Positions 6,400 to 35,953 of a stretch of DNA of 43,135 bases are shown here, in pieces (positions within the stretch are counted from its first letter, which is position 1; each line of letters begins with the position of its first letter). Both the position numbers and the translations under genes were made by a program. Below the pieces are notes generated by a model. That model ran no database searches and was not told where the DNA came from. It worked only from the letters and a program-made list of their open reading frames with translations. The stretch covers positions 1 to 43,135 of the forward strand of contig JAOZVS010000131.1 in assembly GCA_025869435.1 (NCBI GenBank), read 5' to 3'. The DNA comes from Zavarzinia sp. Its GTDB lineage: Bacteria > Pseudomonadota > Alphaproteobacteria > Zavarziniales > Zavarziniaceae.

Positions 6400-6537
6400 C
6401 CCTCCGTCCATGCCTGCGTCTTGTTGCGATGCAATGGCCTCCGGGGCATAGTGGAGTTATTCGAAAGGACCCGGTGAAACTCCGGGTGGCTCTTCCGGCC
6501 GCCGATCCGCCGGACCTTGCCCATATCCGGTATTTTC

Positions 6538-7968
6538 ATGACCTCGTTGCGCGTTTACCGCCACGAATGGCTTCACAACATTCGTGGCGATCTTCTGTCC
6601 GGCATCCTGGTGGCGCTGGCGCTGATCCCCGAGGCGATCGGCTTTTCGGTGATCGCCGGTGTCGATCCCAAGCTCGGCCTGTTCGGCTCCTTCGCCATTG
6701 CCTGCGTCTCGGCCTTCGTCGGCGGGCGGCCCGGCATGATTTCGGCCGCGACGGCGGCGACCGCCGTCCTCATGGTCAGCCTCGTGCGCGATCACGGCAT
6801 CCAGTATCTGTTCGCCGCGACGATCCTGATGGGCGCGCTGCAGATCGGCGCCGGGGCCTTGCGCCTGCACCGCCTGATGCGCTTCGTTTCCCGCTCGGTC
6901 ATCACGGGCTTCGTCAATGCCCTGGCGATCCTGATCTTTCTCGCCCAGTTGCCCGAGCTGATCGGCGTGCCGGTCGAGACTTACGCCATGATCGCGGGCG
7001 GTCTCGCCATCATCTATCTTCTGCCCCTGGTGACGCGACTGGTGCCTTCGCCCCTCATCGCCATCGCCGCGCTGACCGCGATCGCCTGGGGCTTCGGTCT
7101 CGACCTGCGCACCGTTGGCGATCTGGGCGAATTACCGTCCAGCCTGCCGGTTCTCGCCCTGCCGGATCTGCCGCTGACCCTCGAGACACTGCGGATCATC
7201 TTTCCCTATGCCTTCGCGCTGGCCGCCGTCGGCTTGCTCGAATCCCTGATGACCGCGCAGATCGTCGACGACATGACCGAGACCACCAGCGACAAGCACC
7301 GGGAATGCTTCGGCCAGGGCGCCTCGAATATCGCCGCCGCCCTGGTCGGCGGCATGGGCGGCTGCGCCATGATCGGCCAATCGGTGATCAATGTCGGCGC
7401 GGGCGGGCGAGGGCGGCTGTCCACCTTCATCGCCGGTGGCTTCCTGCTGTTCCTGATCCTGGTGCTGGACGATCTCGTGCGCGTCATCCCGATGGCCGCC
7501 CTCGTCGCCGTCATGATCATGGTTTCGATCGGGACCTTCAACTGGCGCTCGATCCTTGAACTGCGTCACAATCCGCCTTCGTCGTCGATCGTGATGCTGG
7601 CGACCGTGGTCACGGTGATCGCCACCCATGACCTCGCCAAGGGGGTGATCGTCGGCGTGCTGCTTTCCGGTGTCTTCTTCGCCGGCAAGGTCTCGCGCCT
7701 GATCTCCATCACCCGCGACGGCGACCGCTACGTGGTGCGGGGTCAGGTCTTCTTCGCCTCGACCGAGACCTTCCTGCGCGGTTTCGATTTTCTCGACGTG
7801 CCGGCGCAGGTGACCATCGACCTGACCCACGCCCACCTGTGGGATATTTCCTCGATCGGCGCCCTGGACAAGGCCGTCCTCCGCCTGCGCCGCGCCGGTG
7901 CCGAAGTCACGGTCGAAGGTCTGAACGAAGCCAGCGCCACCATGGTCGACCGCTTCGCCGCCCATTAG
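6538..7968 (+). CDS. SulP-family anion transporter with STAS domain
   Basis: A 476-aa inner-membrane protein with about ten to twelve hydrophobic segments (residues 20-390). They begin with the SulP signature region GDLLSGILVALALIPEAIGF and include an ESLMTAQIVDD segment typical of the family. A short cytoplasmic STAS domain follows (about 395-476; TIDLTHAHLWDISSIGALD). SulP proteins carry sulfate, bicarbonate or dicarboxylates, and the substrate here cannot be told from sequence. It is on the short side but complete at both ends. I chose ATG 6538 over an upstream in-frame TTG (6517) because the protein proper starts here. No operon partner is evident. Confidence 0.85.
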   Translation: MTSLRVYRHEWLHNIRGDLLSGILVALALIPEAIGFSVIAGVDPKLGLFGSFAIACVSAFVGGRPGMISAATAATAVLMVSLVRDHGIQYLFAATILMGALQIGAGALRLHRLMRFVSRSVITGFVNALAILIFLAQLPELIGVPVETYAMIAGGLAIIYLLPLVTRLVPSPLIAIAALTAIAWGFGLDLRTVGDLGELPSSLPVLALPDLPLTLETLRIIFPYAFALAAVGLLESLMTAQIVDDMTETTSDKHRECFGQGASNIAAALVGGMGGCAMIGQSVINVGAGGRGRLSTFIAGGFLLFLILVLDDLVRVIPMAALVAVMIMVSIGTFNWRSILELRHNPPSSSIVMLATVVTVIATHDLAKGVIVGVLLSGVFFAGKVSRLISITRDGDRYVVRGQVFFASTETFLRGFDFLDVPAQVTIDLTHAHLWDISSIGALDKAVLRLRRAGAEVTVEGLNEASATMVDRFAAH

Positions 7969-26034: not shown

Positions 26035-26087
26035 GAGGGCGCCGCGAAAGGACTTCTTGCGCGGGTGATCGTCGATTGTTATGACAG

Positions 26088-26216
26088 CCCGGTCATTGGG
26101 GAGTAGCCGCCCGCGGCGAAGCGGGGGTCGCGTCAACAGACTTGGGGGACGGTTTCCGTCCGCCATGGCGCGATCAGCGGATCCGGATCCGCCTGGCGAG
26201 ACCTTTGGCAGGTTGC
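26088..26216 (+). promoter_or_regulatory. yybP-ykoY manganese riboswitch
   Basis: The 5' part carries the signature GGGGAGTAGCC (26098-26108), followed by a GC stem (CCCGC / GCGGG), and GTCGCGTCAACAGACTTGG. The 3' part carries CTGGCGAGACCTTTGGC (26193-26209). These are the two conserved blocks that form the Mn2+-binding loops of this riboswitch class. It ends about 70 bp before the ATG of a TMEM165/GDT1-type exporter, a very common target. It should raise expression when Mn2+ is high. Confidence 0.9.
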
Positions 26217-26286: not shown

Positions 26287-26862
26287 ATGGAAGCCTTTCT
26301 CACCTCGACCGGCATCGTCGCCATCGCCGAAATCGGCGACAAGACCCAGCTGCTGGCCATTCTGCTCGCCAGCAAGTTCCGCCGACCCTGGGCGATCTGT
26401 GCCGGCATCTTCGCGGCGACCGTGCTCAATCATCTGCTGGCCGCCTCGTTCGGCACGCTGGTCGCGACCTGGATCGGTCCCGAGGTCATGCGCTGGGTGC
26501 TCGGCCTTTCGTTCATCGCCATGGGCGCCTGGGTCCTGATCCCCGACAAGATGGACGACGACGAGGTGGGGGTGGACAAGCGCCGCATCGGCGCCTTCCT
26601 GACCACGACCATCGCCTTCTTCCTCGTCGAGATGGGCGACAAGACCCAGATCGCCACGGTGGCCCTGGGCGCCCGCTTCGAAAATATCTATCTGGTCACC
26701 CTGGGCACCACCTTCGGCATGATGCTGGCCAATGTCCCCGCCGTCTTCCTGGGCGAGGCGGCAACGCGGGTGGTGCCGCTGAACGTCGTGCGCATGGTGG
26801 CGGCGGCGATCTTCGTCGCGGTCGGCGCCGTCACCCTGTTCCTGCCCGGTCTGCTGGGCTGA
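26287..26862 (+). CDS. TMEM165/GDT1-family cation exporter (probable Mn2+)
   Basis: A 191-aa inner-membrane protein with six predicted helices in two halves. Each half carries the family's hallmark E-x-G-D-K-T: EIGDKT at residues 15-20 and EMGDKT at 115-120. The two halves are linked by an acidic loop (DKMDDDEVGVDKRR). Bacterial members (MneA-type) export manganese, and the eukaryotic ones handle Mn2+/Ca2+ in the Golgi. The manganese riboswitch directly upstream strongly supports a Mn2+-efflux role. It is monocistronic and ends in a shared hairpin facing the MFS gene. Confidence 0.9.
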   Translation: MEAFLTSTGIVAIAEIGDKTQLLAILLASKFRRPWAICAGIFAATVLNHLLAASFGTLVATWIGPEVMRWVLGLSFIAMGAWVLIPDKMDDDEVGVDKRRIGAFLTTTIAFFLVEMGDKTQIATVALGARFENIYLVTLGTTFGMMLANVPAVFLGEAATRVVPLNVVRMVAAAIFVAVGAVTLFLPGLLG

Positions 26863-35355: not shown

Positions 35356-35589
35356 TCAGGCGGCGCGGCGGCGTTCCGCCGCCGAATGGGCGAGAACCAT
35401 CCGGCGGGCCGCGGCCTCGATCTGGTTCAGGCGACGGAAACGGCTGCCGTCCAGCAGGCGGAAGCGGGGGTCCGAGGCGATGAAGCGAAAGCCCGTGCGC
35501 TCGCGCAGGGCAAGGCCCGCCGTGATCTCGTCGATTTCGATGGTGACGGCCTCGACCGAGCCATACTCGGGTTCGAAAGTAATAGACAT
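35356..35589 (-). CDS. Uncharacterised 77-aa protein
   Basis: A small, charged, cytosolic-looking protein: MSITFEPEYGSVEAVTIEI with a two-strand start, FRFIASDPRFRLLDGSRF, then a basic amphipathic helix (RLNQIEAAARRM). I recall similar anonymous small proteins in alphaproteobacteria but no function. Start ATG 35589 follows AGGAG, a good ribosome site, ruling out a 16-residue longer form. It lies 76 bp downstream of a Cys-rich peptide gene on the same strand, with a hairpin between, and may be controlled by it. Confidence 0.65.
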   Translation of the reverse strand: MSITFEPEYGSVEAVTIEIDEITAGLALRERTGFRFIASDPRFRLLDGSRFRRLNQIEAAARRMVLAHSAAERRRAA

Positions 35590-35631
35590 TGTATTCTCCT
35601 GGCGTCCCGCGTCTTCCATATCGCGAGATCG

Positions 35632-35668
35632 TGACAAAATTGGGATTCCTGTTCGGAATTATTTGTCA
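35632..35668 (-). promoter_or_regulatory. Hairpin across the stop codon of the Cys-rich peptide
   Basis: TGACAAA (35632-35638) and TTTGTCA (35662-35668) are inverted, with a nested 5-bp stem ATTCC (35645-35649) / GGAAT (35655-35659). On the minus strand the outer arm begins with the peptide's TGA stop codon, so ribosome position would decide whether it folds. It is not followed by a T-run. Confidence 0.55.
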
Positions 35669-35746
35669 GGCGGTACACATTCGGCAGTAACAGCCGGCAA
35701 TGACGCGCCAGGTTCTCGGTTCAGCGTTTGTTTCGATTGTATTCAC
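35666..35746 (-). CDS. Short Cys-rich peptide, leader peptide or peptide precursor
   Basis: A 26-aa reading frame starts at GTG 35746, preceded at 7 bp by GAGGAG, one of the better ribosome sites in this window. The peptide is MNTIETNAEPRTWRV followed by IAGCYCRMCTA: a polar N-terminal half and a C-terminal half with cysteines at 19, 21 and 24. This shape suits either a Cys-codon-sensing leader peptide or a modified-peptide precursor (leader plus core). No known precursor family matches to my knowledge and no maturation enzyme is adjacent. It may be chance, but start signal, placement and surrounding structure argue for a real gene. Confidence 0.5.
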   Translation of the reverse strand: MNTIETNAEPRTWRVIAGCYCRMCTA

Positions 35747-35940
35747 GGGTCCGCTCCTCTGTCTGGGGGAACCACGACGCTCGCCGTGGCGCTTTAGCTG
35801 GGATAACGCGGCGCAAGCTGCTCCCGTCAAATTCCGCGGGTCCGTAACGGGGACCACCCGGCCGCCACCATGGGTCGACGACGTTAATCTAGGCGCCCCG
35901 GCGCCGGTTTCAAGCATAAAACACATGGCGGGCGATAATA
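35747..35940 (-). promoter_or_regulatory. Structured leader with candidate promoter
   Basis: On the minus strand TATTAT (35940-35935) is a near-consensus -10, with TTAATT 16 bp before it. The following ~180 bases have no supported gene. CGGACCCG occurs twice: at 35844-35837, where it pairs with GGGTGGTCC (35859-35851) in a local hairpin, and at 35753-35746, right at the peptide's start codon. The two copies compete for the same partner. This is the arrangement of a translational switch (inferred). Confidence 0.45.
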
Positions 35941-35953
35941 TTAGATTGATCAC

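Follow-up and report, generated by a model that had tools for sequence, protein, structure and literature searches.

A probable divergent SAM-II-type riboswitch joined to a cysteine-codon leader peptide in Zavarzinia and other alphaproteobacteria

Introduction

Work on riboswitches and work on leader-peptide attenuators usually proceed separately. In the translational attenuation of ermC, a stalled ribosome frees the downstream Shine-Dalgarno (SD) sequence. Among riboswitches, the SAM-II riboswitch (RF00521, the metA element) is described from alphaproteobacteria (PMC1273637; see also PMC9373788 and PMC10907184). According to the first of these papers, it is built from a stem, P1, and a pseudoknot, P2, carries the motifs AUUUGA, GCUUGC and GCUAAA, and lies upstream of methionine genes. 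The element reported here shares these features. Unlike SAM-II as described there, however, it carries an extra hairpin, P3, within the 3' strand of P2, a helix, P2a, re-formed beyond P3, and a shorter L3 loop, and its target is a leader peptide with cysteine codons or, elsewhere, cys genes.

On the side of the peptide, ribosome-mediated attenuation has been proposed for the uORFC-8-2 motif, which precedes cysS in Rhodobacterales (PMC8632094) and which, like our leader, is an alphaproteobacterial short ORF with adjacent cysteine codons. The accessible text of that paper describes an intrinsic terminator, cysS as the target and mainly UGC codons, and mentions no riboswitch, whereas here the window (by which we mean the whole stretch of 43,135 nt of a Zavarzinia contig that was analysed) showed no terminator between peptide and gene, the cysteine codons of the leaders are biased towards TGT, the target is an unnamed small gene and a riboswitch lies upstream. 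Cysteine-rich regulatory short ORFs of mycobacteria are described as cysteine-responsive attenuators (Canestrari et al. 2020, as cited in PMC9094748). They too have cysteine codons in a short ORF, but differ in being leaderless, and the accessible part of PMC9094748 does not mention a riboswitch. Finally, for CutF/CutO of Rhodobacter capsulatus, stalling on an upstream peptide was proposed to open an SD-hiding stem (PMC9973294). CutF, as presented in that report, is an exported copper sensor with a proline-rich end upstream of copper genes and in this differs from the leader in the window, in whose 26 residues we saw, by eye, neither a hydrophobic stretch nor a proline-rich end.

Both halves of the arrangement described below have known relatives. 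No description of a SAM-II riboswitch combined with a cysteine leader peptide was found among the open-access papers that the literature searches listed, and within that literature the combination and the pseudoknot with an inserted hairpin appear new.

Results

The region under study comprises 364 intergenic nt on the minus strand, flanked by an alpha/beta hydrolase gene (36835-35954; Pfam E 1e-25) and an ORF of 77 aa (Table 1). A preliminary description of this DNA, made from the sequence alone, had reported a GTG start with GAGGAG at 7 nt, a frame ending in CYCRMC-TA and a 77-aa gene with its own AGGAG. All of these can be read directly: the AGGAG lies at 35600-35596, and the leader codons are V N T I E T N A E P R T W R V I A G C Y C R M C T A stop, with cysteine codons TGT, TGC and TGT beginning at 35692, 35686 and 35677. 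The hairpin said to include the TGA of the peptide (P5, TGACAAA/TTTGTCA) is also present and is kept in four of six Zavarzinia (by eye, alignment A7), and it does not appear in the RNAalifold consensus of the six. Less durable was the idea of copies of CGGACCCG competing for one partner. The repeat is real, yet only the window and its nearest relative have a near-exact copy at the start codon, so this detail is not conserved and we rejected it as a conserved switch.

Boxes of the TTGA.. and TA.. type, resembling the candidate promoter of the window, were seen by eye in the five other Zavarzinia; the promoter match would put the transcription start at about 35880-35875. No intrinsic terminator was found in the window between the peptide and the 77-aa gene, the sole terminator-like site (35994-35980) being upstream of the leader, and no tRNA genes were found in the window. 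Elsewhere in the window, a sul1 RNA (RF03058, 70.3 bits; 6464-6519, plus strand), another sulfur-linked RNA, runs up to the beginning of a 483-aa ORF (6517-7968) that reads, by eye, like a SulP-type sulfate permease. A manganese (yybP-ykoY) riboswitch (26084-26194, plus strand, 55.6 bits) precedes a 191-aa ORF at 26287 that is membrane-protein-like and reads, by eye, like a UPF0016-type exporter. An aminotransferase family found in the same genome bears on nothing discussed here.

Table 1 Features of the leader and the downstream small gene, with positions in the window
Feature	Position	Strand	Basis
Sigma-70-like candidate promoter, TTGAAA-16-TAGATT	35886..35913	-	Consensus scan of 851 bases, with 2 sites against a mean of 0.3 in shuffles
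P0, local hairpin GGUCC/GGACC just 5' of the aptamer	35839..35855	-	Sequence
SAM-II-type aptamer core	35770..35839	-	RF00521, 20.9 bits; model R1, 84.3 bits (the window sequence was among those used to build R1); alignment A3
P1	35838-35834/35811-35807	-	Aptamer core
AUUUGA motif	35832-35827	-	Aptamer core
GCUUGC motif	35818-35813	-	Aptamer core
GCUAAAGC	35798-35791	-	Aptamer core
P3, inserted hairpin CCACGGC/GUCGUGG within the 3' strand of pseudoknot P2	35772..35789	-	A3, varying sequence
P2a, GGGA (35825-35822) with UCCC (35770-35767), beyond P3	35767..35825	-	Permutation test, 90 loci
SD sequence of the leader peptide, GAGGAG	35754..35759	-	Sequence; 7 nt before GTG
Cys-rich leader peptide of 26 codons, GTG start at 35746	35666..35746	-	Sequence; ORFs at the same place in relatives
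P7, predicted long-range helix, CCUGGCG (35712-35706, peptide-coding) with CGCCAGG (35604-35598)	35598..35712	-	RNAalifold, six Zavarzinia
P5, hairpin with the stop codon of the peptide	35632..35668	-	Sequence and fold; kept in 4/6 Zavarzinia by eye
P6, predicted hairpin between P5 and the SD sequence	35606..35627	-	RNAalifold, CG/GC swap in 3/6
77-aa protein of an unnamed family, members mostly about 63-84 aa	35356..35589	-	Profile A6 matches, 42/386 genomes of the class

At the Rfam gathering threshold the window leader gave no match. At a permissive threshold, RF00521 (SAM_alpha, SAM-II) matched 35847-35774, scoring 20.9 bits where the cut-off is 36 (E 0.029, 801-base search), which taken by itself would be weak evidence. 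The aligned core, CGCGG-AUUUGA-..-AGCUUGC-.CCGCG-..-GCUAAAGC, is that of SAM-II in the RF00521 alignment, and the P1 stem and the three core motifs AUUUGA, GCUUGC and GCUAAA by which a SAM-II riboswitch is recognized are all kept in the window. A canonical SAM-II of 50.8 bits also occurs in the same genome, upstream of an ORF identified by eye as metZ. The preliminary description had spoken of a structured leader; the RF00521 match and the relatives point to a SAM-II-type riboswitch, which had been missed. From these comparisons we infer that the window leader is a divergent riboswitch of the SAM-II type, presumably with SAM as its ligand.

The element also occurs beyond the genus. In a DNA search of 60 genomes, including the source genome, 35856-35742 emerged as the conserved part of the intergenic region, with matches in 15 of the 60. 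The other five genomes of the genus all matched (E 1.3e-80 to 5.4e-18), three of them over only about 35856-35742 and two over more, and the best-conserved part is the 115 nt up to the leader start codon. A covariance model of the core, R1, had matches at E up to 0.01 in 84 of the 386 alphaproteobacterial genomes sampled, 70 of them at E up to 1e-7; the weakest of these matches may be ordinary SAM-II copies, and the metZ copy of the source genome itself matches at E 2.7e-6. In a phylum sample, whose share from outside the class is not shown, R1 matched 13 of 299 genomes, all 13 labelled as of the same class or nearer. The places matched by R1 at E up to 1.1e-7 numbered 92, with weaker ones left out; 90 were fetched, the other two having already been seen (L014, L022). 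Two Zavarzinia loci (L009, L011) brought the set to 92 again, and two loci without the anchor motif (L111, L132) were dropped, giving the 90 loci compared below.

A scan at the Rfam gathering threshold covered 60 of the 92 loci. The element scored below the cut-off in 56 of the 60 and passed it in four (L055, L056, L087, L088), and thus grades into the accepted SAM-II family; two further RF00521 matches are a second, upstream tandem copy (L059, L086). When 17 loci were scanned permissively (E up to 1), the variant was reported in L014 (29.6 bits) and in no other relative of the window. Tandem pairs, with a more canonical SAM-II copy upstream of the variant with the inserted hairpin, occur in L022, L014, L059 and L086. 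One genome (G380, contig C116, 73-97 kb) has five variant copies in about 23 kb (L046, L075, L076, L077, L108), whose leaders differ (among them MVRYLCCRYT and MTHNRCS) and whose downstream genes include rhodanese, SsuA-like, MetQ-like and Lrp-like ones.

GCUUGC and GCUAAA are present in all aligned relatives (A3), and in the 90 loci they are conserved by construction since each locus was anchored on AGCTTG followed by GCTAAA. P1, with the best helix chosen per locus, takes the compensated forms CGTGG/CCACG, TGCGG/CCGCA and CCCGG/CCGGG besides CGCGG/CCGCG. A hairpin before P1 recurs, and P0 in L039 is GGCCC/GGGCC, compensatory relative to the window (by eye).

The strand that closes the pseudoknot lies 3' of the inserted hairpin (CCACGG..CCGUGG, after GCUAAAGC), and a hairpin with a span of 17-26 nt stands at the P3 place in 71 of the 90 loci. 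Across loci the P2a pairs include GGGC/GCCC, GGGA/UCCC (as in the window), GAGC/GCUC, CGGA/UCCG and GAGGAUC/GAUCCUC, with a helix of at least 4 pairs in 66 of the 90. Summed over the 90 loci, pairing with the own strand reached 966, whereas permutations averaged 872 (sd 19; maximum of 5000 permutations 947; p 2e-4). The hairpin finder plainly failed in some loci (e.g., L049, L100, L118), which should have weakened this signal rather than inflated it. The covariation expected of the SAM-II pseudoknot is therefore found in P2a, though across an inserted hairpin; the part of P2 formed by GCUUGC and GCUAAAGC is invariant and carries no covariation information. In four loci (L063, L080, L081, L107), the SD region repeats, by eye, part of the P3 5' strand (such as CACGGAG) and could pair with the P3 3' strand, a possible expression platform.

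The element precedes methionine and cysteine genes or short ORFs. Its directly controlled genes include those for O-succinylhomoserine sulfhydrylase (metZ), MetX, siroheme synthase CysG and PAPS reductase (cysH), each over the NCBIfam cut-off; MetN-like and MetQ-like genes, both below NCBIfam cut-offs, also lie behind it. Methionine/SAM genes downstream, as in SAM-II, are thus found for the group, while the target in the window is the unnamed small gene. The spacing to the first start codon is 48-71 nt, counted from the G of GCUAAA, in all 26 leaders that precede a relative of this gene and in 23 of 30 first ORFs longer than 100 aa. In L065, L130 and L133, the element and a Cys-rich leader precede mutually similar ORFs, of which the one in L130 looks like a RimK-type ATP-grasp ligase (below the NCBIfam cut-off, E 8.7e-17) and that in L065 has no Pfam family at E 1e-6.

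With start codons picked by an in-house score for SD sequence and start codon, the first ORF has 6-60 codons in 54 of the 90 loci; 42 of these 54 contain cysteine and 36 at least two. Behind the first ORF, 26 of the 90 loci have a relative of the 77-aa gene; in these the leader contains cysteine in 25 and at least two in 24, the sole leader without cysteine being a 47-aa ORF (L047). Cysteine codons make up 79 of the 661 codons in the 26 leaders vs 220 of 27,476 in larger downstream ORFs, and reading the leaders in shifted frames yields 34 (frame +1) and 11 (frame +2). They cluster near the end, with at least two in the last ten residues of 23 of the 26 leaders vs 32 of 519 SD-preceded control ORFs; the figure at loci without the 77-aa relative is 11 of 28. 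TGT accounts for 51 of the 79 cysteine codons in leaders vs 46 of 220 in larger downstream ORFs (Fisher p 6.5e-12; as the loci are kin to each other, this and the other p values overstate independence and serve as guides). Cysteine aside, conservation of leader length and sequence is low: the 25 leaders with cysteine that precede the small gene have 12-34 aa, and elsewhere lengths fall to 6 aa, with the minimal forms M-T-T-C-C-P and M-T-C-C-C-P.

The leader thus has the layout of an attenuator, namely a short SD-preceded ORF with cysteine codons clustered near its end, before a conserved gene. Lack of conservation of the frame or its cysteine codons had been named beforehand as counting against the preliminary description; a Cys-containing short ORF was found at the same place in all five same-genus relatives.

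The 77-aa protein was found in five genomes of the same genus and one of the same family, and profile A6, made from 16 proteins (that of the window and 15 of 25 others, two of which, from L065 and L046, were trimmed at the end), detected the family in 42 of the 386 genomes sampled from the class. The window protein has no Pfam or NCBIfam match. Naming the family from these databases was given up, with single-member weak matches only (best E 0.0048, one of 16 members), and a PDB search with the family gave nothing convincing (best E 0.13). The AlphaFold model, from six sequences, was too poor (mean pLDDT 59.4, pTM 0.32) and hence unfit for a fold search. Ten family loci without a convincing R1 match (best E 0.6) were read. 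A Cys-rich short ORF lies upstream in five of these (L155, L157, L159, L160 and L161, with L155 and L157 from one genus), and in the other five, including L031 at a contig edge, no convincing Cys-rich ORF was seen.

Transport or sulfur-type genes lie behind the small gene in 7 of the 26 loci: by Pfam, ABC ATPases (L050, L052, L110), a rhodanese (L046) and solute-binding proteins (L058, L084), and by eye a MetN-like ORF (L125). In 19 of the 26, the six Zavarzinia included, no sulfur gene was seen by eye within about 1 kb behind the small gene, a count based on a downstream-gene listing from which L061 is absent. The 77-aa protein may have a role in sulfur metabolism.

Between the leader and the small gene, unconstrained RNAalifold prediction on six Zavarzinia gave the long-range helix P7, whose 3' strand overlaps the SD sequence of the 77-aa gene (CGCCAGGAG) and whose CCUGGCG strand, in the window, ends 13 nt before the first cysteine codon. 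One G-C pair of P7 is replaced by U-A in two of the six. P7 is in the centroid and absent from the minimum-energy fold of the window RNA, and the RNAalifold covariation term for the six-Zavarzinia fold was unfavourable (+0.53). The covariation score of P6 and P7 together lay above all 500 shuffles and slid versions; their number of pairs with double changes was not above shuffles (357 of 500 reach it). Across 25 loci (L116, with an unclear start of the small gene, was left out), own pairings between peptide-coding stretch and SD beat permuted ones (p 0.019) and the Fisher combination vs shuffles gave p 0.031, with one of the 25 loci reaching p<0.05 alone. Limited covariation in the six Zavarzinia lends some support to a pairing that would hide the SD sequence of the 77-aa gene, and across the 25 loci the signal is weak.

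Fold stability was dropped as evidence, since in this respect the window leader did not stand out from shuffles (fold z -0.74 and -0.13); it is conservation rather than stability that exceeds chance. Constrained folding was also tried as a way to fix the sign of SAM control. Holding the aptamer folded left the SD slightly more accessible (0.37 vs 0.32; 84 of 90 loci usable), with lower accessibility in 20 loci and higher in 38 (Wilcoxon p 0.019); OFF control was not supported, with a slight trend against it.

Discussion

Our findings establish a real, conserved feature, most likely a structural riboswitch variant joined to a cysteine-codon leader peptide. At the level of sequence, comparison among loci brings out the SAM-II-type RNA, the inserted hairpin, the leader with cysteine codons, the order of these parts and the sulfur or methionine genes behind part of the loci. 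We think it probable that the region acts as a two-input, sulfur-sensing mRNA leader, in which the SAM-II riboswitch gates the cysteine-codon leader peptide. The first input would be the divergent riboswitch, controlling translation of the 26-codon peptide, and the second the cysteine codons close to its stop. If charged Cys-tRNA ran short, a ribosome would stall at these codons and cover or crowd the peptide-coding stretch that pairs with the downstream SD sequence, thereby freeing the SD of the 77-aa gene. With plentiful cysteine, or with SAM keeping the leader untranslated, the SD would stay paired. SAM as ligand, SAM as OFF signal and the logic of their combination are all proposed here. 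In particular, SAM is taken as the OFF signal because of the riboswitch family and the methionine genes, and as constrained folding lent no support to it, this is a step that we infer. Sulfur genes follow the small gene at no more than 7 of the 26 loci, which slightly lowers our confidence in the two-input reading.

A simpler reading would have a single input, with the riboswitch controlling a Cys-rich functional small protein (e.g., thiol- or metal-binding) that is made together with the 77-aa protein. The riboswitch does also lie directly before coding genes, and the Cys-rich ORF and small gene occur together in five loci that the model does not match. However, little except cysteine is conserved in leader length and sequence, forms as short as MTTCCP and MTCCCP exist and the TGT bias is strong, and we give this reading a small though real chance of being right. 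Alternatively, the nascent chain itself could be the sensor, its cysteines binding a metal or sensing redox state and stalling the ribosome, so that the signal would not be cysteine supply. Clusters of Arg or Met next to Cys recur at the C-terminus (by eye), and in Rhodobacter a stalling-like event at CutF is described as unmasking a downstream SD (PMC9973294). Yet the neighbours that could be named belong mostly to sulfur and methionine metabolism and to transport rather than to metal handling, and the shortest leaders would presumably barely leave the peptidyl-transferase centre, which makes this sensor unlikely. The preliminary description had itself proposed a leader switch that responds to cysteine supply, and comparison supports this idea in part, through the cysteine enrichment, the TGU bias, the clustering near the stop, the minimal leaders and the sulfur genes in part of the loci.

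The aptamer could also have switched to another sulfur metabolite as ligand while retaining the SAM-II fold. Its shorter L3 loop, inserted P3 and low Rfam score would fit such a change, as would targets that include cysteine-pathway genes besides methionine ones. But the window keeps AUUUGA, GCUUGC and GCUAAA, four copies score above the SAM_alpha cut-off and metZ and metX are among the targets, and we consider a change of ligand very unlikely. Least credible, with hardly any likelihood, is the other early suggestion, a ribosomally made and post-translationally modified peptide precursor. Some loci do combine a Cys-rich C-terminus with a longer N-terminal part. On the other hand, very short forms occur, length and sequence vary while the cysteine codons persist, and the synonymous bias points to the codons, which disfavours such a precursor. 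Moreover, no modification enzyme was recognised among the neighbours of the window locus compared with Pfam or among 20 downstream proteins elsewhere (16 behind a short ORF; 4 unnamed), and ten leaders had no NCBIfam match.

Returning to the two-input reading, its boldest form is that a SAM-II subtype with a hairpin-threaded pseudoknot gates a cysteine leader, so that RNA alone would compute 'low SAM and low cysteine' and open both a small-protein gene and sulfur-acquisition operons across alphaproteobacteria. This we hold only tentatively, with doubt slightly outweighing belief. If true, it would constitute a natural and widespread two-signal sulfur device, with a SAM aptamer governing where translation of a cysteine-codon peptide begins to be allowed, and would account for a set of tiny ORFs and for a conserved, unnamed small protein.
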